Below, piece after piece: positions 580 to 33,269 of a stretch of 34,707 nt of DNA (positions are counted from its first letter, which is position 1; each line of letters starts with the position of its first letter). The notes beneath the pieces are model-generated. The model made no database searches. It was not told where the DNA came from and saw only the letters and a list, made by a program, of their open reading frames with translations. The position numbers were made by a program, and so were the translations under genes. The DNA comes from a virus. The stretch lies in IMG/VR virus record IMGVR_UViG_3300037847_004435, positions 322 to 35,028 of that record; one strand, given 5' to 3'.

Positions 580-607
580 TGAGTAATATAACAAGGAGTT
601 GAGGAGG

Positions 608-1828
608 ATGATTTCTGCGGTAGTTAGAAACAATGCTACAGATTTCAGAATTCTAAAAAATCAAGAAGATTTGATGATTGGAGGATATGCAAGCATCGAA
701 ATTGTTGATAAGCAAAATGATTTAATCACACTCAAAGCACTGGAAGAAGCAGTAGAGAAATATATGGAGAATCCAAAATTTAGAAATGTAATGACAAATC
801 ATTCTAATGTTCAAGTAGGAGAAGTAGTAAAATCATATAGAGATTCAAACGGAAAACTATGGAAAACAGAAGTAGATGATGTAGGATTTTTTGTAGTAAT
901 TAAATTAAGAGACGATATAGAAAAAGCCAAAGAAATAGGAAGAGGCGTTAGAAAAGGTTCATTGAGGAGTTTTAGCATAGGAGGACAGGCAATACAGAAA
1001 GTAAAGAAAAGCCACCCCGAACTAGGACAATACAATGAAATAAGCAAACTAGAACTACATGAGGTTACAATCTGTGAAAAAGGAATAAACCCCGAAGCAA
1101 AGTTTGATATTCTTAAACAAGAAAAGGAAGTGAAAAATATGAGCAAAATTGAAAAAGCACTAGAAGAGTTAGATGCGCTAATGGCAGAAGTCAATACTCT
1201 TCGCAAAGAAGAAGACATGGAGAGTATGGATATGTCGGAAGATGAAAAGATGATGAACGAAAAAATGATGGACGAAAAGATGATGGACGAAAAAATGGCT
1301 GACGAAGATGAAAAGATGGCTGAAGAAAAGGGTATGTATAAAGACGATGAAGCAAAAGCAGTCGTTTCAACTCTTGACGGAGCAGGTGTCGAAATCGGTG
1401 AACCAGCAGATAGAGTCATCATTGAGGGAGGAAGGCCAAAACCTTCTGACCTACCAGTTGTAAAAGCATTTGACAATGAAGAACTACAAACTCTTGATTT
1501 GTCTAACGCTAACATCGAGAAAGCATATGAGGCTTTCCGACAAGAACAACTAGAAAAGTTGGCATACGACAACTTGCAGAAATCATTTGAGGCTCGATTT
1601 GCGGCTGAAGTAGCACATAAAGAAAATGTTCTAGCAAAGTCTGAATATGATGCACAAACTGAAATTGCTTCTCTAAAAGAAGAATTTACTGCACTAAGAA
1701 AGTCTCTAACTGCTGAAAAGGAAACAATTCTAAAAGCACAAGAAGAGGCAACAATAACACTCCCAACTATGGAAGAACTAGCCGATATGGACTGGAATGA
1801 TATCCACAAGATGGTAGGAGGCATTTAA
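608..1828 (+). CDS. Prohead maturation protease fused to scaffold (XkdF/S78-like)
   Basis: A 406-residue capsid maturation protease that cleaves scaffold and capsid precursors inside the prohead. Residues 1-175 form the protease: H65 in MTNHSN and the Ser region GSLRSFSIGG (S118-S123) are the expected catalytic His and Ser of the herpes/HK97-like fold, followed by ELHEVTICEKGINPEAKF, the usual end of these domains. Residues 178-406 are a charged, helical scaffold with a low-complexity repeat (about 205-240) and coiled coil (about 300-385). The ATG at 608 is preferred over TTG at 599, which would almost touch its AAGGAG. The capsid gene follows one base after the stop. The start region's SD is dense (AAGGAG, then GAGGAGG), so the exact start is uncertain by a few codons. 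Confidence 0.85.
   Translation: MISAVVRNNATDFRILKNQEDLMIGGYASIEIVDKQNDLITLKALEEAVEKYMENPKFRNVMTNHSNVQVGEVVKSYRDSNGKLWKTEVDDVGFFVVIKLRDDIEKAKEIGRGVRKGSLRSFSIGGQAIQKVKKSHPELGQYNEISKLELHEVTICEKGINPEAKFDILKQEKEVKNMSKIEKALEELDALMAEVNTLRKEEDMESMDMSEDEKMMNEKMMDEKMMDEKMADEDEKMAEEKGMYKDDEAKAVVSTLDGAGVEIGEPADRVIIEGGRPKPSDLPVVKAFDNEELQTLDLSNANIEKAYEAFRQEQLEKLAYDNLQKSFEARFAAEVAHKENVLAKSEYDAQTEIASLKEEFTALRKSLTAEKETILKAQEEATITLPTMEELADMDWNDIHKMVGGI
1139..1828 (+). CDS. Nested scaffold protein from an internal start (lambda Nu3-like arrangement)
   Basis: An in-frame ATG at 1139 (codon 178 of the protease gene) sits exactly where the protease domain ends and the helical scaffold begins (MSKIEKALEELDALM). 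It is preceded by GGAAGTGA at 1126-1133, one mismatch from the strong local ribosome site GGAGGTGA, with a 5-base spacer. This would give a separate 229-residue scaffold without the protease, as in lambda C/Nu3. The signal is seen in the sequence; that it is used is inferred from that precedent. Confidence 0.55.
   Translation: MSKIEKALEELDALMAEVNTLRKEEDMESMDMSEDEKMMNEKMMDEKMMDEKMADEDEKMAEEKGMYKDDEAKAVVSTLDGAGVEIGEPADRVIIEGGRPKPSDLPVVKAFDNEELQTLDLSNANIEKAYEAFRQEQLEKLAYDNLQKSFEARFAAEVAHKENVLAKSEYDAQTEIASLKEEFTALRKSLTAEKETILKAQEEATITLPTMEELADMDWNDIHKMVGGI
1226..1330 (+). repeat. Degenerate 15-base tandem repeat in the scaffold region
   Basis: Imperfect copies of GATGAAAAGATGATG-like units encode EKMMDEKMM-type repeats, an acidic/Met-rich helical stretch joining the protease part to the coiled-coil scaffold part. 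Such repeats are prone to copy-number change. Confidence 0.7.
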
Positions 1829-1829
1829 G

Positions 1830-3224
1830 ATGAGTTACATTAATACAATCGCAGATTTAGAAGCAAGAACATATGGACTAACCGGAGCAACTGGCTTTAA
1901 CAACCAATTGTTGAAGCAAGCGGGAACTGTTGCAGGTATTCATGTTGGTCATGATACCAATGCGGCAAATGTCGCTGGTGGCGTTGGTATTACTGATGTC
2001 GGTGGTCTTTACAACAAGATTTACGGACAAAAAGTTTGGTCAATGCTAAACAGGGAATGTAATGCTCTTTCAGTTATTTCAAAGAGGCCATATACATCTA
2101 GTGGATGGAGAATAATGACAGAAAGACCTGCTGGTGGAAGTGGAAACTCCCTAGCAGTAGCGGCAAACAGTGACGATGGCGTTTCAGCCCCAACTGCTAC
2201 AAATATTGGTTCAACAACTCCAAGAGCAGATACTATTGGTGGTGTTCCAGAAAATGCACGATTAGATAATGCAAGTGATGGACTAGCGGCTATTGCCCCA
2301 ACCTACACTACACTATTTACAAGTCCTAAAACAATTGCACATCAATTTGACTTTAGCGAATTGGCTATGGAAATGGCGGCAATTGACGATGGAATTGGTG
2401 ACATTAGAGCGCAAATGAGAGAAGATATGGGTAAGCACCATGCTGAAACTCAAAACAAAATGCTAGTTATGCCACTTGAATTCTACCTTGGTTCCGGAAG
2501 CAGCGAATCTCTTGATTTGCTAGACAGAAACTATACCTCTCTATTGAAGGTTGTATCTTCTGCGGCTGAAATCACACAAATGGATTCAGATGACTTCTAC
2601 TCTCTAAAGTATGATAACAATTCTGGAACAGATGATGCTGACAATGAACCAATGAAGAGACTTTACGGAACTGTTCGTGGTGCATCCGGTTCAGGATTCC
2701 TAGATGCTCAAGTAGATGATAACGATGATTATTCCGCTACTGGTGGTCGTCAATTAACTTTGACTGTAATTAACAATACTCTAAGACTACTTCGTGAAGC
2801 AGGTGGTTCACCAAAGGTTATTCTAACTGGATATGATACCATTCAAACTCTTGCTGATTTGTTACAAGCACAAGAGAGATTCATGGATAGAAAAGAGATT
2901 GTTCCAACTGTAAACGGTGTTAGGGGAACAAAGGGTGCTGAAGTAGGATTTAGAGTTTCTACATACTACGATATCCCATTGATTCCTGTAGCGGCTATGT
3001 CTAAAACATCTGCAACTGCTAATCCAATTAGTGATATGTTGTTCCTAGATACTGACCACATTTGGCTATCTGTTATGAAACCAACTCAATACTTCGAGGA
3101 TGGTATTGCTAGTGGAAACCCATTCGGTGTCGGAACTCTAGGTAACAAGGCTCTTTACCGAACAATTGCAGAAGTTGGTTGTTCATACTTTAAGGGTCAA
3201 GGCAAGATTACCAACCTATTGTGA
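1830..3224 (+). CDS. Major capsid protein, HK97-like fold
   Basis: The shell-forming protein, 464 residues. Identity rests on position immediately after the protease/scaffold gene, on size, and on the sequence plan: a flexible N-terminal arm (about 1-60), then an alternating alpha/beta core with LYNKIYGQKVWSML near 60-75 and a spine-helix-like region AETQNKMLVMPLEF (about 208-222). The C-terminal half holds conserved-looking strands (LLFLDTDHIWLSVMKPTQYFE, about 400-420, ending with the gene's HK97 P-domain-like strand). GGAGG lies 8 bases before the ATG. Expression is probably high: it uses C-ending codons such as AAC, TTC and TAC more than neighbouring genes. A direct family match was not computed. 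Confidence 0.8.
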   Translation: MSYINTIADLEARTYGLTGATGFNNQLLKQAGTVAGIHVGHDTNAANVAGGVGITDVGGLYNKIYGQKVWSMLNRECNALSVISKRPYTSSGWRIMTERPAGGSGNSLAVAANSDDGVSAPTATNIGSTTPRADTIGGVPENARLDNASDGLAAIAPTYTTLFTSPKTIAHQFDFSELAMEMAAIDDGIGDIRAQMREDMGKHHAETQNKMLVMPLEFYLGSGSSESLDLLDRNYTSLLKVVSSAAEITQMDSDDFYSLKYDNNSGTDDADNEPMKRLYGTVRGASGSGFLDAQVDDNDDYSATGGRQLTLTVINNTLRLLREAGGSPKVILTGYDTIQTLADLLQAQERFMDRKEIVPTVNGVRGTKGAEVGFRVSTYYDIPLIPVAAMSKTSATANPISDMLFLDTDHIWLSVMKPTQYFEDGIASGNPFGVGTLGNKALYRTIAEVGCSYFKGQGKITNLL

Positions 3225-3983: not shown

Positions 3984-4277
3984 ATGGCTAGTTGTAGAAG
4001 TAGTGGGGTTTTGACTGCAAGCGCAGTCGTTAGTGCTGAAAGATGCAAATTAGTTTCTATTCATGCACAACTAACAGGAACAAACCCTACATTGGTTAGA
4101 GTTTTTGATAATTCTTCTGCCGCAAGTGGTAAAGAATTAGCAAGAATAAATCTAGTTACTTCAAAAACAGATACCATAGAGTTTGACATGCATGGCGTTA
4201 TTGCTAGTAACGGTCTATATCTTGACATAGCAACTGGAACTGGTGTTGGTGCGGCTGTCTCCGTTGAATTTGCTTGA
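3984..4277 (+). CDS. Small beta-sandwich-like head protein
   Basis: 97 residues from ATG with GGAGG six bases upstream. It is a short beta-rich protein (VLTASAVVSAERCKLVSIHA, TLVRVFDNSSAASGKELARI, GLYLDIATGTGVGAAVSVEFA). This layout is common in viral accessory proteins that sit on particles. No family assigned; a capsid or head-fibre role follows only from its neighbours. A 46-base gap before it is the largest space in the head cluster. Confidence 0.7.
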   Translation: MASCRSSGVLTASAVVSAERCKLVSIHAQLTGTNPTLVRVFDNSSAASGKELARINLVTSKTDTIEFDMHGVIASNGLYLDIATGTGVGAAVSVEFA

Positions 4278-4283
4278 GGTTTT

Positions 4284-4670
4284 ATGATGGCAGTTTTGAA
4301 CCAAGATACTAGATTAGTGATGACTATACTCTTTGTTGGCGCATTGAGTGGAGCGAATGTATTTGCTTATGCAACATTTGGAACAGGTTTTCCATATGGG
4401 CCAATAGCGCATTCTGTTCTATTTGGATTAGGAACAATTGGAGCGATTATGGTTATGAAGGCTCTATTTGATTTAGCACTTAATGATAAAATAGAAATGT
4501 GGCTACTTGATAGAAAGATAGCGGCATTTTGGGAAAGAAAGGCTAGAGACGAACAACAGCGTCAAAAGATGCGTGAGAGTGCTAGGCAATACAATACTAG
4601 TTTCTATACCCCGCCAACACAAGAAGATGAAAATACAGTTGGTAATGAGTTTTTAGCGGCCCTACAATAA
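4284..4670 (+). CDS. Two-segment membrane protein
   Basis: 128 residues with two clear hydrophobic segments (about 11-32 and 40-65) followed by a charged helical C-terminal region (WERKARDEQQRQKMRESARQ) that should face one side of the membrane. It starts with ATGATG after TGAGGT. It is the first gene of an unusual block that also contains a second membrane protein and a GTPase. Membrane proteins inside a head-gene cluster are unusual; roles could include virion membrane contact during DNA entry or assembly. No family recognised. Confidence 0.75.
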   Translation: MMAVLNQDTRLVMTILFVGALSGANVFAYATFGTGFPYGPIAHSVLFGLGTIGAIMVMKALFDLALNDKIEMWLLDRKIAAFWERKARDEQQRQKMRESARQYNTSFYTPPTQEDENTVGNEFLAALQ

Positions 4671-4682
4671 GGGGTTGGTTAA

Positions 4683-4901
4683 TTGGTTGTTAGCGATTTG
4701 CTAGGGTTTTCTGATTCTGATTATGCTTATAATCAGTCTAGAGCGCATTCTGCTGATATTTTCTTTTTGAAAATGAGAGCATGGTTTTGGGGAGGGTGTT
4801 CTACTCTTGCTATGTTTCTAATTGGAAATATTATGGGTGTTTTTGATATTAATATAATGGGATGGATTATAGATAGATTAAGTGATTTATGGGGTCATTG
4901 A
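4683..4901 (+). CDS. Small single-pass membrane protein
   Basis: 72 residues from a TTG after GGGGTTGGTTAA. The N-terminal half is soluble (SDSDYAYNQSRAHSADI); a hydrophobic stretch (about 34-60, FWGGCSTLAMFLIGNIMGVF) forms one membrane segment, ending in an amphipathic WIIDRLSDLWGH. Its stop codon is one base from the ATG of the GTPase gene, so the two are probably translationally coupled and may act together. Confidence 0.7.
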   Translation: MVVSDLLGFSDSDYAYNQSRAHSADIFFLKMRAWFWGGCSTLAMFLIGNIMGVFDINIMGWIIDRLSDLWGH

Positions 4902-4902
4902 T

Positions 4903-5571
4903 ATGTCATTGATGACTGGCTTTGCCATATTAGTGGGCGAAGCAATTATTGGTTTTTGGAAGAAAGTTCACGCAATTAACTTTGGAGTGTATGGGGCTAC
5001 CATGGTTGGTAAAACAACTTTAAGTCATCAATTAAGAACAAGAGGAGAAGTCCCTCAAATTAATGAAAGAACTGTTGGTTTACATAGAGCGTCAAGAAAG
5101 AATGTAAAAATAGACGGTGATTCCCACACAATAAAAAGTGCTGATATTGGAGGAGAGGCAGTTTATTGGAAAGAATGGGTAAAAGATATGCAAGGTCGTA
5201 GAGTTAAATATGTTATTTTTATGATTGACCATAGGCATTTAGACAATGAAGCAAATCTAGACCATCAAGTGGCTTGGAAGTTTTTAGTAGATACAATTGT
5301 ATCTAGCAGATGGCCTACTGGTAGAAAGAAAAAGGATTCGGACTACCCCATGGCAGTCGCAATATGGGCTAATAAATATGATATATGGGGAGAAAAATAC
5401 CCATTAGAAAAAGAACAGCCCATTGACAAACATAAAATATTTGAACCTTTTAAGTATGGTATGAGACAACTGAATGATAAAGGCATTCCTTGTTTCAAGT
5501 ATATTGTATCAGCAAAGTCAGACCCCGAAATGGTATATAGAGGCGTAATGACGATGATAAAAGATTATTGA
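4903..5571 (+). CDS. Arf/Ras-like small GTPase with hydrophobic N-terminal helix
   Basis: 222 residues. All G motifs are visible: P-loop GATMVGKT (31-38), switch-I Thr in ERTVG (T57, like the Arf PTIG), DIGGE (81-85, the DxGG of Arf-type switch II), the VIFMID strand (104-109), NKYD (157-160) and SAK (203-205). The usual catalytic Gln after DxGG is Glu here (E85). Residues 3-19 are a hydrophobic helix that could anchor it in a membrane, as the N-terminal helix does in Arf proteins. ATG 4903 is chosen over GTG 4882, which would overlap the previous gene. It is flanked by two membrane-protein genes and a zinc-finger gene, all between capsid and connector genes. GTP binding is well supported; its biological role is unknown. 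Confidence 0.85.
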   Translation: MSLMTGFAILVGEAIIGFWKKVHAINFGVYGATMVGKTTLSHQLRTRGEVPQINERTVGLHRASRKNVKIDGDSHTIKSADIGGEAVYWKEWVKDMQGRRVKYVIFMIDHRHLDNEANLDHQVAWKFLVDTIVSSRWPTGRKKKDSDYPMAVAIWANKYDIWGEKYPLEKEQPIDKHKIFEPFKYGMRQLNDKGIPCFKYIVSAKSDPEMVYRGVMTMIKDY

Positions 5572-5580
5572 GGTAAAAGT

Positions 5581-6261
5581 ATGTATCAGCAACCAAATAT
5601 GATAGGCCAAAATAATATGCAACCGCAAGGTATTGCATATGGAATGACACCGCTACAACACGCAAGAGCGAGTGGTATAGTTCAAGAATACAAGTTTATT
5701 GCACATAAACCAAAAAAACAACAACAAGAATTAATTAAAGTTCTAAAAGCAGAACCTAAAAAGTTTTTATTTCTAAAATATGGAAAAAAATTCAATCTAA
5801 AAGATAGGTGTGTCGTTTGTGGAATGCATCATGTTTGGGAACAAGGAGACTACATGAGGCCACCTATTCCTTTAGATGGCGTTGTTAAGGGTAGGCCGTT
5901 AATGGGAACCTATTGTCCTAAACATGCGGCTCATTTTATGCAATTAGAAATGCTACAACAACAAATACTTGCAGATAAACATGGTTTAGAATTTAAGAAG
6001 TTTATTCCTAAAACACCTAAGTTGCTAAAAAGCGGCCCAATAAAGAATTTAACCAAAGAAGATATTGCTTCCTTAACTGCCGCAGGTTATTTTATTAAGC
6101 CACCCACATTAGGCGATAATAGGTCTGCCACTAATGAAGCAATTGAAATCGTTGGAGAAATAAATATACTAACAGATAGATTAAATTATTTAATGATAAA
6201 TCAAGGAGTTAAAGCCCCTAAGACAGAAAAGAAAACTAAAGAGGAAGTAAAGGAGGAATGA
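5581..6261 (+). CDS. Zinc-finger protein of the GTPase block
   Basis: 226 residues; ATG after TGAGGT. A Gln/Asn-rich N-terminus (1-30) is followed by a basic region (KPKKQQQELIKVLK) and a CVVCGMHH (about 79-86) ... YCPKH (about 112-116) pair, a likely zinc site of C-x2-C / C-x2-H type. The rest is helical with a Lys/Glu-rich tail. It overlaps the next gene's earliest ATG by four bases. Context suggests a partner of the GTPase or a structural linker; no family is recognised. Confidence 0.7.
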   Translation: MYQQPNMIGQNNMQPQGIAYGMTPLQHARASGIVQEYKFIAHKPKKQQQELIKVLKAEPKKFLFLKYGKKFNLKDRCVVCGMHHVWEQGDYMRPPIPLDGVVKGRPLMGTYCPKHAAHFMQLEMLQQQILADKHGLEFKKFIPKTPKLLKSGPIKNLTKEDIASLTAAGYFIKPPTLGDNRSATNEAIEIVGEINILTDRLNYLMINQGVKAPKTEKKTKEEVKEE

Positions 6262-6263
6262 GT

Positions 6264-6914
6264 ATGGGTATATTTGGAACAAGTAATGGAACAGTATTAG
6301 GGGCGGTTCAACAACAAGGCGACCAAAATTTCAAGAATGTAAATAACCTACTTTCACTACAGGAAAATCATGTTGAAGAATTTTTTCAATACCATGGTGA
6401 ACAATTTTTAACTGCTTTAGAACAATTGATGGAGGATGTCATTGAAAGAGTAGTTTCACAAATGTTAGGCAAACTTTCTTTTTCAACATCCGGAGGAAAC
6501 ATTACAATTAATCCCGATGCTATGAGAGAGTTTGAGAGAATAACACAAGAGAATATTGACTTAGATATTCAAAAGATTCTAGGTGCGGCTATCAATACAG
6601 AAGTAGTAATGCAAAGAAAAATGGCTAAACAACAATATCTAGAATCTCAAGGATTTAGCGGAGGAGGTATGCAACAGCCTTCTGCGGCTCAAGCCTTTGC
6701 TAATGTAACAGGTAATACTCAACAATTTAATCAAATGAATAATGCTATGAATAACGGAAGCGGATATCCTGTTCCTCCTAGTGGAACAGACGGATATGGT
6801 AGGCCATATTGGATAGATGCTCAAGGGCAAATGAGTTACGAACCACCACAAAGCGGATTAGGACTAGGTAGTGCTATACAAAAGGGTGCGGCTTGGGCTA
6901 AATGGCTAATGTGA
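6264..6914 (+). CDS. Unknown Q/N-rich structural-type protein
   Basis: 216 residues. ATG 6264 is preferred because AAGGAGG lies seven bases upstream; ATG 6258 would be too close. Residues 1-120 are helical (LLSLQENHVEEFFQYHGEQF, LEQLMEDVIERVVSQML); residues 125-200 are low-complexity Gln/Asn/Gly/Pro; the end is amphipathic (GSAIQKGAAWAKWLM). No catalytic motifs. Probably a virion or assembly protein of the same block as the GTPase. Confidence 0.65.
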   Translation: MGIFGTSNGTVLGAVQQQGDQNFKNVNNLLSLQENHVEEFFQYHGEQFLTALEQLMEDVIERVVSQMLGKLSFSTSGGNITINPDAMREFERITQENIDLDIQKILGAAINTEVVMQRKMAKQQYLESQGFSGGGMQQPSAAQAFANVTGNTQQFNQMNNAMNNGSGYPVPPSGTDGYGRPYWIDAQGQMSYEPPQSGLGLGSAIQKGAAWAKWLM

Positions 6915-6926
6915 GTGTGATTTAAT

Positions 6927-8060
6927 TTGACAATATCATTCACTTGGGGAACCTTACCGAAGGCCTTTCCCGATGATAAAGAAGATATAAAACAAGAATT
7001 AGAACAATATCTTCTCAAGAATGAAGGGTCATTTGTTAGTAAATTAAAATCAGCAAGAAAAGAACCTAGAAGAAATAATCAAGAAAATGAATTTATGGAT
7101 GAAATTCAATCTATATTAGATTCAGTTCTAAGTGCTAACTCATATGATTTTTTATCTGAATCAGAAGGCTTTGCTAGAACTCTAGGAAAAACAGATAAAG
7201 ACAAAGAAGATAATAAAAAAATGATAAAGAGAACTTCTCTAAAAAAGTTAGTAACTGATACTGATATACAAAACAAATTAATTGGTTTTACCTTTATGAA
7301 GTTTGGAAGAGACTTGGAAGAAATTCCAGATTTTGATTATCTTAAAACCTTCAAAGATTATGGTATAGAAACAGAATTTGTTTTAAGACCATCTTTTAAG
7401 GACGGAAAACCCACTGGTAAGTATTCTTATTCTTCTGGAAAAAATACTCAATTGAAAAATGCAAATACCATAATCTATTATCCATCTGTATCTCCGGAAA
7501 GACAAGCAGAAACTAAAGCCAATATAATCAAAGCAAAAGGTGTTAAATCTGCTAGATATATTACAAAAGGGCATTCTAGATTTAAAGCAGCAGAAGCGGT
7601 GTTCTCTTTTCCATTTGAATTAGATAGTTTTGCGGAACTAATACTTGAAACAACCGTGAATCCAGAATCAGTAGCACGATTAAAGACTTCAGAAGAATTT
7701 GAAAAGAAAGTAGAAGAATGGATGAAGACAAATATGAAAAAACTTCTAAAGCCATTAGATGGAGATTTAAAATCTCTACAAACCGTCAAGAGCCTAGAGA
7801 TTGAATGTAAACTAGTGACTACAGAAAGAAAGGGTAAAAAGCAAGCCGCTTCTCATTCTCTTGGAGAACTTAATGAAAAATTCAAAAATGCTTCACTCAA
7901 TTGTGTATATTACATAACAGGGCATGGATATTTTGATTTTAGTCCATATAATGTAGGAGTGGAATCTAGCGGAGTAAATGTGATAATGCAAAAGCACATT
8001 AACGGATTAAAAAAGAGACTTAAAATGTTAAGAAGGCAAGGAGTAACTACGGGAGTGTAA
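6927..8060 (+). CDS. Unknown 377-residue protein before the head-tail connector
   Basis: It starts at TTG in the recurrent GTGTGATTTAAT-TTG setting. The first 110 residues are charged and helical; the middle (about 115-250) mixes strands and helices; a motif-like CVYYITGHGYFDFSPYN near 325-341 precedes a basic helical C-terminus (KKRLKMLRRQG). No nuclease, ATPase or membrane motif is visible. Its place at the end of the GTPase block and just upstream of the connector suggests a head-completion or assembly role, but no family is recognised. Confidence 0.65.
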   Translation: MTISFTWGTLPKAFPDDKEDIKQELEQYLLKNEGSFVSKLKSARKEPRRNNQENEFMDEIQSILDSVLSANSYDFLSESEGFARTLGKTDKDKEDNKKMIKRTSLKKLVTDTDIQNKLIGFTFMKFGRDLEEIPDFDYLKTFKDYGIETEFVLRPSFKDGKPTGKYSYSSGKNTQLKNANTIIYYPSVSPERQAETKANIIKAKGVKSARYITKGHSRFKAAEAVFSFPFELDSFAELILETTVNPESVARLKTSEEFEKKVEEWMKTNMKKLLKPLDGDLKSLQTVKSLEIECKLVTTERKGKKQAASHSLGELNEKFKNASLNCVYYITGHGYFDFSPYNVGVESSGVNVIMQKHINGLKKRLKMLRRQGVTTGV

Positions 8061-8064
8061 GTAA

Positions 8065-9399
8065 ATGGGAATAACTACCTCGCCAAGCGACTATACGGAA
8101 ATAAATCCTAACTATACACAAGGAAGAGGATTTTACACTAATGCAACAGAAGTTGCTAATATGTTACAAATACCCGCCTTTTCTGCTTCTACTTATCCAA
8201 CACTAGCACAAGTTGGTAACATAATAAAGAGAGTAGAAGGAATAGTAGATGATAAGGTAAAGCGTTCCTTTAGGCCAATACTTACTAAACAAGAGTTTCA
8301 CAGTTTTGAATATAGAAACTCTCCGGGCTATACGCTATATGGTGGCTATGTGGGTTTCATCCAACTTACTAAGATGAAAGTTAGAAAGGTTGTTTCTTTA
8401 CAGGTATGGAACGGAAGTAATTATATAGAAATAGCGTCAGCACAAGCAAGAATAACTTTACAGGATGAGTTTAGAAAACTAAAATCAATTACATTACAAC
8501 TTCCCAATGAAGGTGTATCTTTTACTTTGAATGCTGAAAATGATATTACAAACTTAGGTAATGATGAATTTTGCACTACCTTTGGAATTAAGACAACAAA
8601 TTCAGAAATAGAAGCATTGGTTAATGAAGAATATCCAAAGACTTCACAATTTACTAAAGCCACAGCCGCTAAAGAATTAACTTCCTCTAATTTATCTATA
8701 TCCGATTTCTTTTTTGCTCAAAAAGATACACAGGATGGAACTACTGTTTTCTTTTCTTCATTATTATCGGGAGATGACGGGGCTGATTGTGTAATTAAGG
8801 CATCTATAGAAGCCAATACAACAACTGTTGCGGGCGGTTTTCCATCTAATGTGCTTATGTTAGTCGGTAATAATGCACAGAATCAAGCCATTATTAGTAA
8901 TTTAGAGATAGGCATGGAAGTTAGCGGGCCTAATATTATTACTGGAACTACAATTACTAGTATTAATCCGGTAAATAATACAGTTACACTGAGTAATGCT
9001 CATACAGGCCAATCTGAAGCAACAAGAGTATTTACCTCGGCAACAGGTTTTCCTAATATTTGTTCTATTACCCCATTTACAGATAAAGAAACACATGGAA
9101 GATTAAATGATTATTGGCTACTTAATGAAGAGGGCAGAATATTCTTTTTACAAGAATATCCTTATCACCCAAATAACTCAATTATTGTTTCTTATCTAGC
9201 GGGTTCTGGTAGAGTTCCTTCAGCAATACACGAAGCGACCACTAAAATGGTAGCGGCTGAAATAATAAGGCACGATGACCAAAGTATTCTTATTGCTGAA
9301 ACAGGAGCAAACATTTCTACTAAAGAAAAATATGATATTCTTAGAAATGAGGCTATGGCTATTCTTAAGGGCAAAGCAGACCTTGTTTATTTATTGTGA
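8065..9399 (+). CDS. Head-tail connector (adaptor) with inserted beta domain
   Basis: 444 residues. Residues about 45-70 (TLAQVGNIIKRVEGIVDDKV) are the helical signature of gp6/gp15-type adaptor proteins that bind the portal, and the C-terminal helices (about 385-440, IHEATTKMVAAEIIRHDD) complete that fold. Between them lies a long insertion. Part of it (about 292-325, GMEVSGPNIITGTTITSI then TVTLSNA) matches the small beta repeat of the form GMxVSGxxIxxGTTIxSI that recurs in phage virion proteins. Ordinary adaptors are only 100-200 residues, so the insertion is likely surface exposed at the neck. The order connector, terminator-like protein, tube agrees with this role. Confidence 0.7.
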   Translation: MGITTSPSDYTEINPNYTQGRGFYTNATEVANMLQIPAFSASTYPTLAQVGNIIKRVEGIVDDKVKRSFRPILTKQEFHSFEYRNSPGYTLYGGYVGFIQLTKMKVRKVVSLQVWNGSNYIEIASAQARITLQDEFRKLKSITLQLPNEGVSFTLNAENDITNLGNDEFCTTFGIKTTNSEIEALVNEEYPKTSQFTKATAAKELTSSNLSISDFFFAQKDTQDGTTVFFSSLLSGDDGADCVIKASIEANTTTVAGGFPSNVLMLVGNNAQNQAIISNLEIGMEVSGPNIITGTTITSINPVNNTVTLSNAHTGQSEATRVFTSATGFPNICSITPFTDKETHGRLNDYWLLNEEGRIFFLQEYPYHPNNSIIVSYLAGSGRVPSAIHEATTKMVAAEIIRHDDQSILIAETGANISTKEKYDILRNEAMAILKGKADLVYLL

Positions 9400-10142: not shown

Positions 10143-12155
10143 ATGGTAGCACAAGATATATTTTTAGGAAGTGGAGCAAGCATAACAAAAGTGCCGGAAT
10201 TGGACTTTTATTGTAAAATAACAACTGGAAGCGCAGGGTCAAATAAAACAACCTTTACCTTACATAGTGATATAACCAACAATTTTGCTTTAGTAAATAA
10301 CCTATATGTTGGGTGTATTCTTAAAAGATATAATGTTTCTAATGTTTTTCAGGGAATGCATAGAGTTACCGCCAATACAGATACTACTATCTCCTTTTCT
10401 CCCGCAGTAGCAACATTAGCAAACAACGACTACTTTGTTTTAGAATCATATGGTGCGCCATGTCCTGCTCAAAAAGCGGCTTCGGGAACAACCCATACTG
10501 CGGCTGTAACTGTTATAACTTTTAATTCGGATGTTAAAACAGATTATGATGATACTGCTGTTGTATTTAGAACATTGGCGGCTGATGGCGGTAGTGCTAC
10601 AGAAAGAGCCGTTTTCATTGACCATGATAATAGCGCAACATATACTCAACATACTGGTTCCGGTGTTGTTGCAGAAGCACAAATACATTCTTCGTCAGAT
10701 AATACAAGAGAAGAATATGCCGCTATTTTTGCTATTGCTGTAGATACTTTAGATGATTTAACAGTTACTAGAAACGGAGCAGTTGTTACTGTTACTAATG
10801 ACCACGGAGGGGCAAACGGAATTGCTACAACAATTACAGGATTAGGAGGTTCAGCCACAACAGATACAGGACTTTCAATTACATCAATGACCGTAGGAAC
10901 TACTACTTCAACCGCCACTGGTAAAAGATTACTAGCAGATACATGGCTAGGAATTGTAGAATCAGTAACTTTCCCAACAACAGAAATCGAAATGAAACAA
11001 ACTAATCTTTCACTAGGAAACACTAGAAACTTTACCTATCAATACAAAGGAATAGAAACAGCAGGTGCGGCTGATATTAATTTAGTAGCAAATCACGGAA
11101 CATGGCTATATTATTTCTTAGGAAAATGCACAGATGTAGATATTGGAAATATAGGTGCTGATAATAGCCTTAGCGAAAGTGCGCCTAGTGGTTCAGCCCC
11201 GTCTGACGCTTTCACAGGTGCTTCTAACAAACTTTACATTGATTATAATTCAGTAACCGAAACAGGGCCAATTATTCACAGAAGCGTAGGAACGGTTATG
11301 ACTCCTCCGGTAAATCCTGCAACAGAAACGGTTGGAGACTTAGACCCGTTGGGTGCTTTTTCTTTGAATGGAGGCAAGTTACAAAATGCCATTGAATATA
11401 CCTTTGCAGAACAAGATGGAGATTTACTACCTTCATTTGCTTTAGAACAGGTATTAAGCAAGTTGCCTTCTACTAACACCTTTAGAACAAATACTGCTAA
11501 TGATAATGAAGACACCAACTTCGTTAAGATTGCTAGAGGCTGTAGGGTTAATACTCTAACAATAACTGCTAATGAAAATGAAGAAGTTAAAATGACTGTC
11601 AATGCAAACACTAGAAATGTTCACACATTAGAAAAAACAGAAAGTTATGACGCTAGAAGAGCCGTTACTGATGAAACTTCATTCTTGAATTATGCTTCAA
11701 TACCGGAACTAAGAGAACCATTTTTCTTTTCGGACGGAGTGTTCAAGTGTTTTGGTGAGAGTTTCTTAAAAATAAATACCCTTACTTTAACCATGAATAA
11801 CAATCTACAAGATAGAAGATTCTTGGGAGTCGGTAGTAAGACTATACAAGAGGCTATTCCTGCACAAAGAACATATGAAATATCCTTTACTGGTCATGTT
11901 ACTGATGATTTACTGTATAATGAATTGATTAACAATACTGAAAATTCTGTTGCTAACGGTAATAATAGCACAATTGAATTAGTATTCACTAAATCAACAG
12001 GAGAGAACATAAAACTAAACTTCCAAAACTATTTCTTAACTGCTAATAATTTCCCAATAGCCGATGATAAGGGGCCAATTGTTGTAGAAGCAACTGTCAT
12101 GCCTAGAACTTGCTCGCTTTGTGAAGTAACTACTCATTGGCTATTACAGGGGTGA
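10143..12155 (+). CDS. Major tail tube protein (large, with insertions)
   Basis: 670 residues. The C-terminal half shows tube-protein features: a long run of strands with NTLTITANENEEVKMTVNAN (about 476-495), FKCFGESFLKINTLTLTMNN (about 534-553) and EISFTGHVTDDLLYNEL (about 580-597), the recurring polymerisation-domain pattern of Gram-positive phage tail tubes. The N-terminal 230 residues are Thr/Ala-rich with small beta repeats and probably decorate the tube. It is much longer than typical tubes (150-300 residues). Position between terminator-like and chaperone genes fits. GGGGGAG precedes the ATG. A sheath gene is absent, so a flexible non-contractile tail is expected. Confidence 0.75.
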   Translation: MVAQDIFLGSGASITKVPELDFYCKITTGSAGSNKTTFTLHSDITNNFALVNNLYVGCILKRYNVSNVFQGMHRVTANTDTTISFSPAVATLANNDYFVLESYGAPCPAQKAASGTTHTAAVTVITFNSDVKTDYDDTAVVFRTLAADGGSATERAVFIDHDNSATYTQHTGSGVVAEAQIHSSSDNTREEYAAIFAIAVDTLDDLTVTRNGAVVTVTNDHGGANGIATTITGLGGSATTDTGLSITSMTVGTTTSTATGKRLLADTWLGIVESVTFPTTEIEMKQTNLSLGNTRNFTYQYKGIETAGAADINLVANHGTWLYYFLGKCTDVDIGNIGADNSLSESAPSGSAPSDAFTGASNKLYIDYNSVTETGPIIHRSVGTVMTPPVNPATETVGDLDPLGAFSLNGGKLQNAIEYTFAEQDGDLLPSFALEQVLSKLPSTNTFRTNTANDNEDTNFVKIARGCRVNTLTITANENEEVKMTVNANTRNVHTLEKTESYDARRAVTDETSFLNYASIPELREPFFFSDGVFKCFGESFLKINTLTLTMNNNLQDRRFLGVGSKTIQEAIPAQRTYEISFTGHVTDDLLYNELINNTENSVANGNNSTIELVFTKSTGENIKLNFQNYFLTANNFPIADDKGPIVVEATVMPRTCSLCEVTTHWLLQG

Positions 12156-15248: not shown

Positions 15249-16481
15249 ATGTCATACAGTATATTTGCAGGAAAACAAAAAAGTTTGGTGTTTCCCGTAA
15301 TGTGTAATGGTTTCTTAACAATTGATTATGCAAAGAATGTTCCCGATGCTACAACATCAGCAGATACTAGTGATGATATTCCTTATGGTATTTGGGCGCA
15401 TCAAGGTTCATTTACATTCGAGGCTATGGTAACGCCATATGATATTAACGGGTCGGGAGCATATACTGCTAATCAAAGTCATATTTCTATACTTGACTCA
15501 AAAAAAATATTTCCCGATTTAGGACATGGGGGCCAAATAGCCGAAGGCGACAGATATTATATGGAAAAATCCACTAGGCTAACACATAGAATGGCAATAT
15601 TTTATAGCCCGACCTTCCAAGTATTTCTACAGAATGTATCTAAGCATAACTATAGAAATCCGGCAGAATATAAAATAGTAGTAAAACTAAAATTAGGTAA
15701 TAATTCTATTGAAACATTTACTAGTCCTATAGCAATACAAGCAACGACAGACAGTTATGTAAAATATTCATCTTCCGATAGTTTCAATGGATTAGATGCA
15801 AATGGCAGAACTGCATTTATAAAATTAGGAGATTCTACTGCGGGTTCTTTTACTTATACTTCAGGAAATATAAATGGAACATTTGTAGTGCATAATAGTG
15901 CATTTCCTGTTAATTCTCCTAATTTTGGGGCGCAGGATGTATTTGTTAAGGATGGAGATTCTTATATTCAAATAGGAACACTAAAGAGTCTCGCCACTAC
16001 TTTTCTTTCTGTTCATGTTGGTAGTGGGCCAATTACAGACTATACTTCTCTATTAAATAGTGGAGCAGAAATATTTATTGAAGCGGAAAAAGATGGTGCA
16101 TATGTGAATAATATGTTTCATATTGCCTGTTCTTATGATGATACCGATAAGAGAATAAATATATTTTTAGACGGCAGTTTAATATTTACAGGCACTAGTT
16201 CTAATACAGAAACATTTGAGTTTTTAAGAGAAAATATGTATATTGGTGCTAATGCTACTGGAACGCATGGTGGTGCTTTTGATGCTAATTTAGAAAATAG
16301 GGGGTCAATTGGAAATCACCTCTCGTTAGAAAGTGCTGTAGATAATGAACAATTTATGGGGGAATTACATGAGATGTCTTTTCTAAATATAGTTAGGAAT
16401 GAATTTTCTAGTATAACCAATCTTACACCCAACTACGCTAATACTTTATTTTACCTTAGATTTGAGGAGGTTGATGTCTAA
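15249..16481 (+). CDS. Tail-tip protein with LamG/concanavalin-like lectin domain
   Basis: 410 residues. Residues about 289-330 (FHIACSYDDTDKRINIFLDG then SLIFTGT and MYIGAN) carry the jelly-roll signature of LamG-type domains, where a strand-turn-strand with FLDGxL is diagnostic. An earlier half (about 45-65, GIWAHQGSFTFEAMVTP) supplies the opposite sheet, so the domain is interrupted by about 200 residues. Such domains bind glycans and fit recognition of an archaeal glycosylated S-layer. ATG follows TGAGGTGAATAG; its TAA overlaps the ATG of the giant hub gene (TAATG). Confidence 0.75.
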   Translation: MSYSIFAGKQKSLVFPVMCNGFLTIDYAKNVPDATTSADTSDDIPYGIWAHQGSFTFEAMVTPYDINGSGAYTANQSHISILDSKKIFPDLGHGGQIAEGDRYYMEKSTRLTHRMAIFYSPTFQVFLQNVSKHNYRNPAEYKIVVKLKLGNNSIETFTSPIAIQATTDSYVKYSSSDSFNGLDANGRTAFIKLGDSTAGSFTYTSGNINGTFVVHNSAFPVNSPNFGAQDVFVKDGDSYIQIGTLKSLATTFLSVHVGSGPITDYTSLLNSGAEIFIEAEKDGAYVNNMFHIACSYDDTDKRINIFLDGSLIFTGTSSNTETFEFLRENMYIGANATGTHGGAFDANLENRGSIGNHLSLESAVDNEQFMGELHEMSFLNIVRNEFSSITNLTPNYANTLFYLRFEEVDV

Positions 16482-19400
16482 TGGCTATAGATGTAAGCCC
16501 TAATACACAGGCTAACAGGGATGAGTCTCCAACAAATCCTAAATTCGCAGATTCATCAATCAGTAATGGAGATTTAATGGCTGTTATAATTCAAACACAT
16601 CCAAGCGGAAATCCTACCTTTACTATAGGTAGTGAAGTCTCTAACCAAGCAAATACTAAAGGATTTAGAATTAAACACGATACGGATGGCAGTAATTTAT
16701 TAACTCTATCTTCTTTCGGAACAATTGATTATTTTGTTTTAATACATTCGGATGACCCTGCTAAACATCATTTTGCTAAAATAACTAATCTAGTAGTAGA
16801 AGATAATGGAAACGGAACAACCACAGGAGATGCCTTTGAGTTTGAACCGAGAATAGGTAATGAAATACCAAAAGGAACAAAATATAGAGTTATTACCGGA
16901 GTAAATAACGATTCAATAGTAGCATTATCAATTGGGCTAAAACAAGAAAGCACTTATAATCTAAAAAATAATATTGTTTGTGCAAGACCGCATTTTTATT
17001 TTTATAATAATAAAGAAATTTCGTTTGGTCATGGTAAATTGGATAAGAAAAACGAGTTAAATCACAATAAAAAATATATGGCTCATATAAATTCTAGGAC
17101 TGGAAGCGGAACAATAGAAATGGGGCCGCATGTTCCTGTATTTTCAGAAACAGGAACTACAGGGATAGTATTTAGAACACAACAAGATTTTGGTAAAAGA
17201 ATCATTGATTATAGTAAGTTTGGATTGACCGTAACAATGACTGATGTATTGAGAAATATAGACGAAGATGGTTTTGGCACAACTGCTTCGGGGACTACAT
17301 TATTAAATTTCACTTTCAATGGTGCAAATTCTATTACCACAGATTATACAGATTATTTATTAGCCTATCCAAACGCTAGAAGAGACGGTGGTAATAGTAT
17401 TGACTTAACTTGGATTCAAACAGGCCCAACTAAATATTTACACTACGATACTTCTCCAAAAAGTGCTAATTTGATTACTGGTGTTTCTCAACATGAGACA
17501 GAAGATTCAATAGAACAGGGTAGTTTTTCGGAAACTAGAATTATAGATAATGCTAGAATTATGCGAAAAAAGATAGAGGAACATACTCTATACCAAACAA
17601 AGCAATTAGTTCACATTGGTAACTTAAACGACTTTGTTGATTTAAAGGCCACTTATTCTTCTACTTCATCCACAAATGTATTTGTTTTTGATACTGAATA
17701 TAACTTACAGACAGTATTAGAAGTCGGAGAAGAAATAAGATTAGGAACTACAATTATGTTAGTAGAGACTGTTAGCGGTTCTTCAATAACAGTAAGAGCA
17801 GAAAAAAGAGAAGCGGGAAAGAATACATTTACTTCTGTCGCCTTTACTCCAACTGTAGGAGATACCCTACAAAGAAGGGCTTTAGATTATACAAACCAAA
17901 GAATATTTACAACTATGGATTTAAGTGGCGGAGTTGATAAACTAGAAATACTTTTTACATCCGGAAATCTTAGAAATTTATTCGGAGAAGTCACGGCAAA
18001 AAATATTGACCAATCAACTTTAACTTTTAATGGTCTTTTAGATAATAGTGACTTTAAAAGTTATTATGGGGCAGAAGCAGTTAAGTTTGCTAAAGGAGAA
18101 TATAGAGTATTTTCTACAAGATTCACTGGAGAGGTAGAAGAGATTAATCAAGTAAAAGAAGAAGGTCAAACCTTTTTAGATATAAAAGGAAGAGACTCGA
18201 TGAATAAACTTCTTTCTCCTGTAGTGAATAAAAATACAGTATTTAGTGAAGATATAATTTATTCTACTAGTAGTCCTTATAATAAAATAGGAAATATAAA
18301 GAATGGAAATACATATACTCTAGCACTGGGCGCAACTACTCTCGATACTAATATATTAGATGGTGCAAATAATACATTAAATGGTTCTAATTTTGATAAC
18401 TACCCTACTGTCGGTAGTCATTTATTTACTGAAAATGGATATATAGGTAGAGTAACTGCTGTTGATGTCCATAATACGGATAAGGCGAGATTCACAATAA
18501 ACGGAGCATTGACTAGAGTTAATAACGAAGCAATTTATGTAGAAACTGAAAAGAACTATGTATTTACAAAAGCGTTGGGTTCTTCTCATATTGCTCAATC
18601 TTCTGCTACTTCATTGGTGGGTTCTTCGGGGAAAGGTGCTATTATTACTGCCGGAAACTCTAATGGGGGTCTTTCTTCTAATGGTTCGGAAGGAAACACA
18701 TTAGTTGGCACTTCTTCTTTTAATTCCGATAAGGCTATTGGTTATCAAATACATCAACCGTCGGGTATAGCGAATGATAATTCATTTCAAACTAGATTGA
18801 AAGATGAAATAGGAAATAATGGTGAAAGCACATTTGATACTGTTAATACTTTAATTGATTTTGAAGTGGTAAATACTAGTAAAAAAGACAATAAAGCATT
18901 AATAGAATTAGCACCATATATTCCTATAACTTTGGGTAGAAGAATTACATATGAAGGCTCTAATGATGAAAGAATTGAAACTGAATATACTCAAGCCGCA
19001 GTTTGCACAACTAATCAAACAGCAGGTATAGCGGTGTTTGTTACTAGTTCTTTATCTTCTAGTGTTAATATTGGCGACCCCTTATACGCTGACCAATTCG
19101 ACGGAACTACTGAAACAAAGGGATTCATAGGATATGTTTTAGATGTTGAAACATTACAGGCCACTCAAAGCCTTTACTCTAGTGGAAACCCATCTGCTAA
19201 TCAAACTACAATTAGTGTTCTTTTAGACCGAACAGAAACTCCTTCGGGTAGCACTGTAGATTATGATGTAGGTGATGTTATTTTCTTTTCTACTAGAAAA
19301 AGACATCATATTAATGTTGTAAATTCTGCACATTTATGGGGAGGTAAAATACAAACCATTCCTCATTTAAATTTCTCTTCGGAAATAAAAGATGGCAATA

Positions 19401-22400
19401 CTGCTGTAGGCATTGTTCCTTTTAATTTAAATATATCAACAGAAGACTATAATAAGAGATATGGTATGCCATATTATAAATCATTTAATATTGATGATAA
19501 AAGACTAGGAAGTGAATTAGTCACTTTAACTAGTTCGCCATTTTTAACCTCTTGTAGTCTATATGATGTAAGAGGAAATAACTTTCATAAAAATTTAACT
19601 TCCTATAAATTTAAACCTAATAAAGCATCTGTTTTAACTACTAATCTAATAGAAGAAGGAAAAACAGATTCATTGAGAAGCATGCCTTATGATATTAGAG
19701 GACATACTTCTGCAAAGGGGTCTAATATTACGCAATCTCAAAGAATGCGTAGAGGATTAGAAACTCTATCTGTTCCTAGAGAAACTACAGTCGCAAATTA
19801 TGGGAGAATAAAAACTAGAAGTGCATTCGCAAACAAATATTTTGATACAGTTGATATGTCTTTTCCTAGATTATTTTTCTACATAGTCTCCGATTTATTA
19901 CCATATTCGGGTCAAAGACCGGATAGTATTTTTCATACCTCCGGTGGTGTCAAAACTAAAAACATTAACAATTATAAACTTTTTATGATAGAAAATAAAG
20001 ATAAAACTTCTTCAAACAATTTAATTCTTGAAGATTCTAACTTTCAAAGTATTTCTTTCACTACAGAAACAGACATAACTTCTCTCAAAAGATTTGGATT
20101 GATGAGATTAACAGAATGTGTTTTTGATGAACATTTTAATTTAATTAATCCTGAAAAACCTGTAAATGAAATAGATATAGAAACCGTAGTAGGGGCTGAT
20201 ATAATATCTAGGAAACAAGCCCTACTACATACCGATGGAACAGGAATAAATACTGTAGATATATTTGTAGATAATAGTGGAACTCCAAAAATACAATTTA
20301 ATCAATCTATAACCTTAACAGCAGAAGATGAAATATATACAGATACAGGGCAATTTATAGGAAAAATAGCAAATACAGGAACTGGCGTTCAACATGCTTG
20401 TAGCAATCTAGTATTTACTCCCGACTTTTCTGTAGCGCATAGTAATGTATATCGTTTAACGAAAACATTGGTGGCAGGATTTGGCGGAAGAGAAGGTCAA
20501 GATAGTATAGATACTGACGGAAATGGAACATATCATCCACTAAAAGGAGCAATAGTTCCAAAAGAAACATCAACTTCTTCTAGATATGATTATGGTGAGT
20601 TTGGTTCTAGTTCAACTAATTCCCAACACTATGCTTTTGATAGAAATGGAGGTAACCCTATAGTTTTGATGGATAATGCGGAAGTGGTGCTTCCTAAAAT
20701 ATATGGTTCAACATATACTAATCCTACAGCATATAGTATATCTTGGAATGTTGCTAATCATAAAGTAGTCGGAAAAGCAGTAACTACTGATGCTTTCGGC
20801 AATCCTAACTATGCAAATGCCGGAAATCCATTTGGAGGAACTATAGGAGTTATATTAGATAGATATTCCATAGAAGACGGAGATGGTAAATTAGAAACAG
20901 GTGATTGCACAGGTGTTTTGGGAACTCATACAGACAATATTAAATTTTTTGGAACAAAAATAGGAGCAAGAGAAATAACGACAGTTGGTGCTTTAAATCA
21001 TTATAAACATTTTTTACAAACTAATTCTACAAGTCTTCATGATTATGGTGTTGCTAATGTATCTAGTCCTGCTGATGGAGCATTCATAGGTTTTAAATTA
21101 AGATTGTATTATACTAGTAACGCTAATGGCATGGGTTCTTTTTCATCAGTTAAGACTTCTAACGGTAATGCACAACAAGTTACAATAATACCAAAACAAG
21201 CAGGATATAGTTCTTGGTTAGAGTTTGTGGATTTAACAGGGTGCTATTTAAGAGTCGAGCATATTGCAGGTTCTCAAGCCAATCAAGTCGGTGGATTAGT
21301 AGCAGGAGGAGAACCTAGACAGCCCATTTATGTATATTCTCACGATATAAATGCCGCAGGACAAGCAACATTAACATTAAGTGAAGCCCTCCAAGACGGT
21401 AGAGCATATAGGATTCTGCAACCTAATCCTATATGTATGTATGATTTTTCTCCTGCTGATATAGAATTTAATGTTTTAAAACCAGAATATACTAAAAAAC
21501 CAAATAATGATGAAATGTATGGGAATAGAAAAAACAACTACTTTTTTGGCGAAGGCGGGCAACGGCATTTAACCACAGGAGAATCAGTTTTATCCATGTA
21601 TGTCATGTTAGATTTAGATAAGCAAAGCACATCTAGCAGTATATTGGCGAGCCAAACATTAGAGGTTTTACCTATAGGCGATTACTCTTTATTTTTTAGT
21701 GATGGCAAGAATTCCATAAAGACTAATTGTATATCTAAAAGAAACTCTAGCACTAAACATGGTTTTAGTATTGAAGAAAGAAAAACACTAAAAGGCGTTG
21801 TGTCAGTTTCGGAAACCTTTGTCGTGGATTCTTTAGAAGAATTGAAAATAAATCCAACTAGAGCATGTATTGGTTCTACCGTTACAATAGCCGACGAAAC
21901 AGAATCTCTTATTAATGAGATATTTGAAGAAGAAGGAATAGAGTTCACTAATTCTACTATAACATATCCTTTGTTTATTGCACCGGAGTTTAGAGGTGTT
22001 TCTGCTTTTACTGCTATTAATTTCTTACTTAAGAGAAAGGACTTAAGGTTATTAGAAACAGACGGTGTATTTTCTGTAGTTCCTCATAGTGATTCTAGTC
22101 TAGTAACAAACATACTTATTGATGATGATAAATTAATAGAATTCCAATCTACTAAAACAACTTTTGATTTCTATAATGAAATTATTGTTTATGGTGCGTC
22201 GCATAAGGGCATAAAAAGAAATCTAAACAGTATAAAGAAAATAGGTAGAAAAACCTTAGAAGAAGTAGATTCTAGTTTAGTAACCCAACAAGATGTAGAT
22301 GAACAGGCTTCTAGACTTTTAGACTTACACGGTAATCTAAACATAAAGCACAAAATAAAGGTAATACCAACAGGTATAGAACAAGTAAAAGCAGGGGATA

Positions 22401-22777
22401 TAATACAGTTTGAATCTAAGCAAGAGAATATCGGACTATCTAATTTCTTAGTATTGAATGTAAATCACGAATTGTTCGGTTTTGTTACTTTAGAAATAGG
22501 AAGATACTCTAAAAGATTGGAAGATGTATTTTCAGAATTATTGCTTAAAACACAGAACAATGCAAACAAAAACAGGTCACAAGATTATATATCAAAAACT
22601 CCTTCTTTGGACTTTTTAGAAAAAATTAAGGTTAAGCCAATCTCTCTAACCATTAGAAAAAGAGTAACTACAGGAGCAACACTAGGTTTTACAACAACAC
22701 TAAATACAAATACAGTGCCACTAGGTATAGGTGGTTCTAGCACAACAACCTTGCTGAAAGAGGAGGACTTGATATGA
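16481..22777 (+). CDS. Giant tail hub / tail-tip protein
   Basis: 2098 residues, 18% of the window. Two separated pieces match hub proteins of the gp27/Mu gp44 kind: about 547-575 (GEVEEINQVKEEGQTFLDI and GRDSMNKLL) and a C-terminal part from about 1830 to 2040 (VSAFTAINFLLKRKDLRLLE, KVIPTGIEQVKAGDIIQFES, FLVLNVNHELFG then TLEIGRYSKRLEDVF). Between them lies over a thousand residues of beta-rich sequence with Ser/Thr/Asn/Gly composition, likely an outward-facing host-binding or needle elaboration. GAGGAGG precedes the ATG, and the end overlaps the next start as ATGA. No peptidase or lysozyme motif was recognised. Confidence 0.8.
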   Translation: MAIDVSPNTQANRDESPTNPKFADSSISNGDLMAVIIQTHPSGNPTFTIGSEVSNQANTKGFRIKHDTDGSNLLTLSSFGTIDYFVLIHSDDPAKHHFAKITNLVVEDNGNGTTTGDAFEFEPRIGNEIPKGTKYRVITGVNNDSIVALSIGLKQESTYNLKNNIVCARPHFYFYNNKEISFGHGKLDKKNELNHNKKYMAHINSRTGSGTIEMGPHVPVFSETGTTGIVFRTQQDFGKRIIDYSKFGLTVTMTDVLRNIDEDGFGTTASGTTLLNFTFNGANSITTDYTDYLLAYPNARRDGGNSIDLTWIQTGPTKYLHYDTSPKSANLITGVSQHETEDSIEQGSFSETRIIDNARIMRKKIEEHTLYQTKQLVHIGNLNDFVDLKATYSSTSSTNVFVFDTEYNLQTVLEVGEEIRLGTTIMLVETVSGSSITVRAEKREAGKNTFTSVAFTPTVGDTLQRRALDYTNQRIFTTMDLSGGVDKLEILFTSGNLRNLFGEVTAKNIDQSTLTFNGLLDNSDFKSYYGAEAVKFAKGEYRVFSTRFTGEVEEINQVKEEGQTFLDIKGRDSMNKLLSPVVNKNTVFSEDIIYSTSSPYNKIGNIKNGNTYTLALGATTLDTNILDGANNTLNGSNFDNYPTVGSHLFTENGYIGRVTAVDVHNTDKARFTINGALTRVNNEAIYVETEKNYVFTKALGSSHIAQSSATSLVGSSGKGAIITAGNSNGGLSSNGSEGNTLVGTSSFNSDKAIGYQIHQPSGIANDNSFQTRLKDEIGNNGESTFDTVNTLIDFEVVNTSKKDNKALIELAPYIPITLGRRITYEGSNDERIETEYTQAAVCTTNQTAGIAVFVTSSLSSSVNIGDPLYADQFDGTTETKGFIGYVLDVETLQATQSLYSSGNPSANQTTISVLLDRTETPSGSTVDYDVGDVIFFSTRKRHHINVVNSAHLWGGKIQTIPHLNFSSEIKDGNTAVGIVPFNLNISTEDYNKRYGMPYYKSFNIDDKRLGSELVTLTSSPFLTSCSLYDVRGNNFHKNLTSYKFKPNKASVLTTNLIEEGKTDSLRSMPYDIRGHTSAKGSNITQSQRMRRGLETLSVPRETTVANYGRIKTRSAFANKYFDTVDMSFPRLFFYIVSDLLPYSGQRPDSIFHTSGGVKTKNINNYKLFMIENKDKTSSNNLILEDSNFQSISFTTETDITSLKRFGLMRLTECVFDEHFNLINPEKPVNEIDIETVVGADIISRKQALLHTDGTGINTVDIFVDNSGTPKIQFNQSITLTAEDEIYTDTGQFIGKIANTGTGVQHACSNLVFTPDFSVAHSNVYRLTKTLVAGFGGREGQDSIDTDGNGTYHPLKGAIVPKETSTSSRYDYGEFGSSSTNSQHYAFDRNGGNPIVLMDNAEVVLPKIYGSTYTNPTAYSISWNVANHKVVGKAVTTDAFGNPNYANAGNPFGGTIGVILDRYSIEDGDGKLETGDCTGVLGTHTDNIKFFGTKIGAREITTVGALNHYKHFLQTNSTSLHDYGVANVSSPADGAFIGFKLRLYYTSNANGMGSFSSVKTSNGNAQQVTIIPKQAGYSSWLEFVDLTGCYLRVEHIAGSQANQVGGLVAGGEPRQPIYVYSHDINAAGQATLTLSEALQDGRAYRILQPNPICMYDFSPADIEFNVLKPEYTKKPNNDEMYGNRKNNYFFGEGGQRHLTTGESVLSMYVMLDLDKQSTSSSILASQTLEVLPIGDYSLFFSDGKNSIKTNCISKRNSSTKHGFSIEERKTLKGVVSVSETFVVDSLEELKINPTRACIGSTVTIADETESLINEIFEEEGIEFTNSTITYPLFIAPEFRGVSAFTAINFLLKRKDLRLLETDGVFSVVPHSDSSLVTNILIDDDKLIEFQSTKTTFDFYNEIIVYGASHKGIKRNLNSIKKIGRKTLEEVDSSLVTQQDVDEQASRLLDLHGNLNIKHKIKVIPTGIEQVKAGDIIQFESKQENIGLSNFLVLNVNHELFGFVTLEIGRYSKRLEDVFSELLLKTQNNANKNRSQDYISKTPSLDFLEKIKVKPISLTIRKRVTTGATLGFTTTLNTNTVPLGIGGSSTTTLLKEEDLI

Positions 22778-33268: not shown

Positions 33269-33269
33269 C

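Follow-up and report, generated by a model that had tools for sequence, protein, structure and literature searches.

A predicted Arf-like small GTPase is a core gene of magroviruses

Small GTPases of the Arf family (PF00025; Arf1, Sar1 and Arl8) are switch proteins of the kind that shapes membranes in our own cells, and a T-x-G switch I and a Trp seven residues after the switch-II Gln are typical of Arf, Sar1 and G-alpha and not of Ras, Rab or MglA. The nearest characterized archaeal analogue is ArvA (HVO_3014/OapA) of Haloferax volcanii, a single-domain Arf-like GTPase of fewer than 250 aa with an N-terminal helix. It is needed for vesicle formation and is encoded with ArvB (DUF2073) and the zinc-ribbon protein ArvC (DUF2072), which is proposed as a GAP and whose loss increases vesicles (PMC10927574). 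SR-beta (PF09439) is a further membrane-linked GTPase, and virus-encoded small GTPases of the Rab/Ras type occur in giant viruses of eukaryotes, although they are not known to be part of a head operon. Among tailed viruses of archaea, halovirus HVTV-1 (Druskaviridae) offers a head module with which the locus studied here can be compared gene by gene.

In this study, we analyzed a 34,707-nucleotide stretch of viral DNA (hereafter the window), which is part of a 43-kb IMG/VR contig. A sequence-only reading of this DNA had pointed to an Arf-like small GTPase at positions 4903-5571, inside a head-gene cluster and directly after two membrane proteins. The features of the window that are relevant to the present analysis are as follows (all on the + strand).
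599..1828 (+), head maturation protease (S78), homologous to HVTV-1 gp119
1830..3224 (+), major capsid protein (HK97 fold), homologous to HVTV-1 gp120
3984..4277 (+), 97-aa conserved small head-module protein (possible decoration protein, inferred), first gene of the constant block
4284..4670 (+), 128-aa protein with two predicted TM segments and a charged C-terminal tail, conserved in order in all groups
4683..4901 (+), 72-aa protein with one predicted TM segment and an invariant RAHSAD motif, directly upstream of the GTPase gene in all groups
4903..5571 (+), Arf/SR-beta-like small GTPase, 222 aa: alpha0 helix (residues 3-22), P-loop 31-39, switch I T57-x-G59, switch II D81-x-G-G-E85 with W92, NKxD 157-160, SAK 203-205
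5581..6261 (+), 226-aa protein with a conserved CxxC...CxxH (putative zinc-binding) motif, directly downstream of the GTPase gene
6258..6914 (+), 218-aa helical protein with a conserved N-terminus (FKxxNNLLxLQxNHVExFFQYHG) and a C-terminal AWAKWL tail, last gene of the constant block
6927..8060 (+), variable single-gene slot between the constant block and the connector gene
8065..9399 (+), head-tail connector-like protein (role inferred from position), homologous to HVTV-1 gp125
10143..12155 (+), tail tube protein, homologous to HVTV-1 gp128

The observation made from the sequence alone was confirmed. The gene runs from the ATG at 4903 to the stop codon at 5569-5571 and encodes 222 aa without internal stops. 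The automatically called ORF begins at GTG 4882, but homologs align from the ATG at 4903, which follows the stop of the upstream gene by one base. All five G motifs are present (G31-ATMVGKT-T39, T57 in RTVG, D81-IGG-E85, N157-KY-D160 and S203-AK), as is the helix preceding the P-loop, and the two preceding genes encode predicted membrane proteins with about two and one TM segments, as judged by a simple hydropathy scan. The cluster is a head module, with an S78-type protease and an SU10/HK97-type major capsid protein upstream and connector-like, tail tube and tape-measure-like genes downstream. The tail region also contains a 2098-aa ORF (16481-22777). One qualification concerns the Glu that replaces Gln at position 85, which is natural E/Q variation rather than a universal loss.

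With regard to the virus itself, a replication module with a family B DNA polymerase lies on the opposite strand. The polymerase (32354-34703, - strand) is split into two ORFs with two short ORFs between them, and its motif C region reads YGHTDS instead of YGDTDS. All 14 examined relatives of 92-97 kb encode Cpn60, and one relative that was analyzed in more detail has an HMG-CoA-lyase-like gene, a terminase and a portal. In this relative (locus L107, 7233-13502), a PAP2-type phosphatase and the HMGL-like lyase lie next to the terminase, together with two ORFs with HExxH motifs. Together, the head and replication modules of the window and the Cpn60 gene, the length of about 92 kb and the lyase-like gene, the last three observed in relatives only, match the published description of Aoguangviridae, clade B of the magroviruses, which are tailed viruses associated with Poseidoniales/Marine Group II archaea (PMC10768690, PMC12999244). 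The host assignment rests on that literature.

Scans of viral contigs with three queries reported at least 234, 123 and 274 relatives, in overlapping sets. From 233 loci, we extracted 179 unique full-length proteins, which are at least 62% identical to the window protein. The motifs GxxxxGKTT, DxGG, NKxD and SAK, as well as a Trp seven residues after the switch-II Gln/Glu, are present in 179 of 179, whereas position 85 is Glu in 150 and Gln in 29. T57 and G59 of switch I are invariant in a 55-member alignment, so the occurrence of these motifs is not due to chance. The idea that Glu85 marks a dead enzyme was rejected as a family rule, since Gln occurs at the same place in 29 members, and Glu at the catalytic Gln position need not mean inactivity (a Gln-to-Glu change in Ras is reported to still permit hydrolysis). 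A maximum-likelihood tree divides the family into two fully supported clades (100/100): clade I+II, whose tested members carry Cpn60, and clade III, whose tested members do not; all Gln-containing representatives in the tree are in clade III. The division between groups I and II used in the counts is a convenience and not a clade. Strong purifying selection is evident, since dN to window relatives is 0.03-0.10 while synonymous sites are near saturation. One copy (L101, 8001-8372) is cut by a stop after about 124 residues, which reflects a sequencing error or a broken gene. To reach other magrovirus clades, a search through a mixed capsid alignment was unsuccessful, whereas a PolB-motif DNA pattern worked.

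In every group, the order 97-aa protein, 128-aa protein, 72-aa protein, GTPase, 226-aa protein and 218-aa protein is kept at nearly constant distances, and the GTPase is the most conserved gene of the head module (group I: median 85% versus 66% for capsid and 75% for protease; group III: 62% versus 58% and 54%). It is single copy in 29 of 29 long contigs. Such a single copy and fixed order rule out the idea of a passing moron gene. One contig of twice the usual genome length (IMGVR_UViG_3300021958_000021, 184,733 bases; loci L037 and L103) holds two different GTPase copies about 92 kb apart and is probably two magrovirus genomes joined in assembly. Immediately after the constant block, the slot that corresponds to 6927-8060 usually holds one long ORF in 177 loci (slot length 1.0-3.8 kb, median 1.7 kb), but its products fall into at least eight clusters without detectable similarity, indicating a hypervariable gene inside an otherwise rigid head module. 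Profile comparison with HVTV-1 found counterparts of the protease, capsid, connector and tail tube proteins in the same order, but none of the 97-, 128-, 72-, 226- and 218-aa proteins or the GTPase. HVTV-1, HCTV-1 and a third distant 104-kb contig lack the GTPase, while the seven contigs with a close capsid match all have it.

A structure prediction showing a non-GTPase fold had been named beforehand as something that would overturn the assignment. A first AlphaFold run with 52 near-identical sequences gave a poor model (pLDDT 54) and low TM-scores. When divergent homologs were added, AlphaFold2 gave a model with pLDDT 75.3 and pTM 0.75, showing the strand-helix order of a small GTPase preceded by an N-terminal helix at residues 3-22 (alpha0-b1-a1-b2-b3-a2-b4-a3-b5-a4-b6-a5). 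The listed PDB matches, which include Arf1, Rab and G-alpha, are all small GTPases or G-alpha, with E-values down to 3.6e-9, and Arf1 on membrane tubules (8s5c) has a TM-score of 0.76 normalized to the target. The closest viral folds in the listed BFVD hits are Rab/Ras proteins of giant viruses of eukaryotes. At the sequence level, 55 of 55 representatives hit MMR_HSR1, 49 Roc, 44 SR-beta, 34 Ras and 20 Arf at E-values up to 0.1, and the best MMR_HSR1 (1.2e-5), Arf (6.5e-5) and SRPRB (8e-5) hits are significant. Several Gln85 members have Arf as the leading Pfam hit, and one tested member, L250 of clade III, passes the Pfam Arf cut-off (22.9 versus 22.3), whereas the window protein itself passes no Pfam cut-off. 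A single-sequence hhalign comparison with approximate reference sequences of Arf1, Sar1, Ras, Ypt1 and MglA scored Ras best, above Arf1 and Sar1. Sequence places the protein nearest Arf/SR-beta/Roc-type GTPases without assigning it to one subfamily.

The N-terminal helix seems better described as an Arf/Sar1-like reversible membrane-binding helix than as a transmembrane anchor, although membrane association is inferred only from helix composition. It contains an invariant Glu13, and in one clade none of 63 members scores as TM. In clade III, the helix is more amphipathic (mean moment 0.31 and mean hydrophobicity 0.31, against 0.32 and 0.30 for Sar1).

A gene of this type is unusual for tailed viruses of prokaryotes. 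It has no PHROG family, and tblastn of the protein against 50,697 phage records gave no match. A scan of GTDB genomes with the family profile found only one contig (L082), a magrovirus fragment binned with a Maricaulis (bacterial) MAG, which represents contamination. In the literature searched, no paper was found that mentions a GTPase in magroviruses, although an earlier annotation as "GTPase" in the supplements of the original magrovirus papers (Philosof 2017, Zhou 2023, Prabhu 2025) cannot be excluded. As far as we could find, what is new is the context, a core gene of a tailed-virus head module, while the protein itself is a divergent branch of a known superfamily.

The interpretation offered by the sequence-only reading was partly supported. 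A small Ras/Arf-type GTPase, an archaeal tailed-virus head operon, adjacent membrane proteins and the rarity of such a gene in tailed viruses were all borne out, whereas strict Arf membership is no more than tentative, with only one tested member passing the Pfam Arf cut-off and the window protein passing none, and action in virion-membrane contact, genome delivery or remodeling of the archaeal membrane remains inference. Our best explanation, which we hold tentatively and as somewhat less likely than not, is that the gene encodes a GTP-binding and probably GTP-hydrolyzing Arf/SR-beta-type GTPase, made late together with head proteins, which would cycle between a GDP form with its N-terminal helix tucked away and a GTP form in which the helix inserts into the host cytoplasmic membrane. 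There it would work with the two small TM proteins encoded just upstream, and possibly with the CxxC/CxxH protein as a regulator, to remodel or mark the membrane for head assembly at the membrane or for release, as a viral counterpart of ArvA. Computation shows the predicted fold, the motifs, their conservation, the single copy and the strict gene order; GTP binding, hydrolysis and cycling, late expression, membrane binding, the partners and the process served are inferred, without biochemical data. The alpha0 helix, the two TM genes in fixed order in every group and the precedent of ArvA in Haloferax favor this view. On the other hand, the place of the gene among head genes could equally mean a virion component, and magroviruses are thought to be lytic (PMC10768690), so vesiculation as such is not expected. 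In its boldest form, also tentative, magroviruses would have a dedicated membrane machine, an Arf-like GTPase switch plus two TM proteins and a zinc protein, that reshapes or perforates the archaeal membrane in a GTP-dependent way for virion assembly, exit or genome entry. To our knowledge, it would be the first GTPase-driven membrane step in a tailed virus of prokaryotes.

The main rival, which is less likely but not separated from the above by the data, is a virion-borne entry complex. In this view, the GTPase, the two TM proteins, the 226- and 218-aa proteins and perhaps the variable large protein are packaged in the head or at the portal and ejected with the DNA to form a channel in the host membrane, and the GTPase gates or powers DNA entry with cytoplasmic GTP. 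The fixed position between capsid and connector genes, several membrane-active neighbors, the single large fast-changing gene in the adjacent slot, and the 218-aa protein, which looks helical with a conserved C-terminal tail and has a weak virion structural PHROG hit (E 0.0077), are in agreement with this possibility. However, no sequence match to known ejection proteins was found, no ejection complex is known to use a GTPase, and HVTV-1, with homologous head proteins, has no such block. It is also unlikely that the GTPase is merely a morphogenesis switch or chaperone that times prohead assembly or maturation, with the membrane proteins acting as an assembly site and without membrane remodeling. 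Its location next to protease and capsid genes, very high conservation and single copy would fit, but related haloviruses assemble heads without it, and no GTPase is known to be needed for HK97-type assembly. More doubtful still is a host-signaling mimic that interferes with a pathway such as ArvA-driven vesicle formation or cell polarity, its place in the operon only setting late expression. Archaeal hosts may encode ArvA-type GTPases, as ArvA is found in 14 archaeal phyla (PMC10927574), but the neighbors are strictly fixed in 233 loci, no lineage was seen with the gene elsewhere, no close cellular relative was found, and profile matches are only weak. Finally, a degenerate or different P-loop protein is very unlikely: although the window protein alone scores below all Pfam cut-offs and by alignment has Thr at the Ras Gly12 position and Glu at the Gln61 position, the NKxD and SAK base-recognition motifs are invariant in 179 of 179, the predicted fold is that of a GTPase, and L250 passes the Arf cut-off.

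Magroviruses are very abundant and among the commonest viruses of surface-ocean archaea, and a single-copy, strictly syntenic and highly conserved Arf-like GTPase beside two membrane proteins provides a concrete, testable entry point to the largely unknown way in which archaeal tailed viruses cross or break the host membrane. It also adds a viral branch to the debate on where Arf-type membrane GTPases come from, alongside ArvA and Asgard GTPases.

Compared with the Arf family, the viral protein shares the predicted fold with an N-terminal helix, the T-x-G switch I, the D-x-G-G switch II, the Trp seven residues later and NKxD, but it has Glu instead of Gln in most members, SAK instead of CAT, an extra loop around residues 134-146 and no N-terminal Gly2 for myristoylation, and it is encoded by a tailed virus. 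The block offers a loose parallel to the ArvA system, namely a GTPase with an N-terminal helix, an adjacent Cys/His protein and membrane partners; however, the 226- and 218-aa neighbors do not match DUF2073 or DUF2072, and the gene is flanked by TM proteins and head genes, so that it is not classified as an ArvA system. Compared with SR-beta, hits remain below the curated cut-off where scores were shown, the motif is DxGG rather than the D-x-P-G of SR-beta, and there is no signal-recognition pathway context. The Rab/Ras GTPases of giant viruses are likewise virus-encoded, but they belong to viruses of eukaryotes and show 10-20% identity. The head module of HVTV-1 is homologous and co-linear in its protease, capsid, connector and tail tube proteins, and it is the block around the GTPase that is missing from it.
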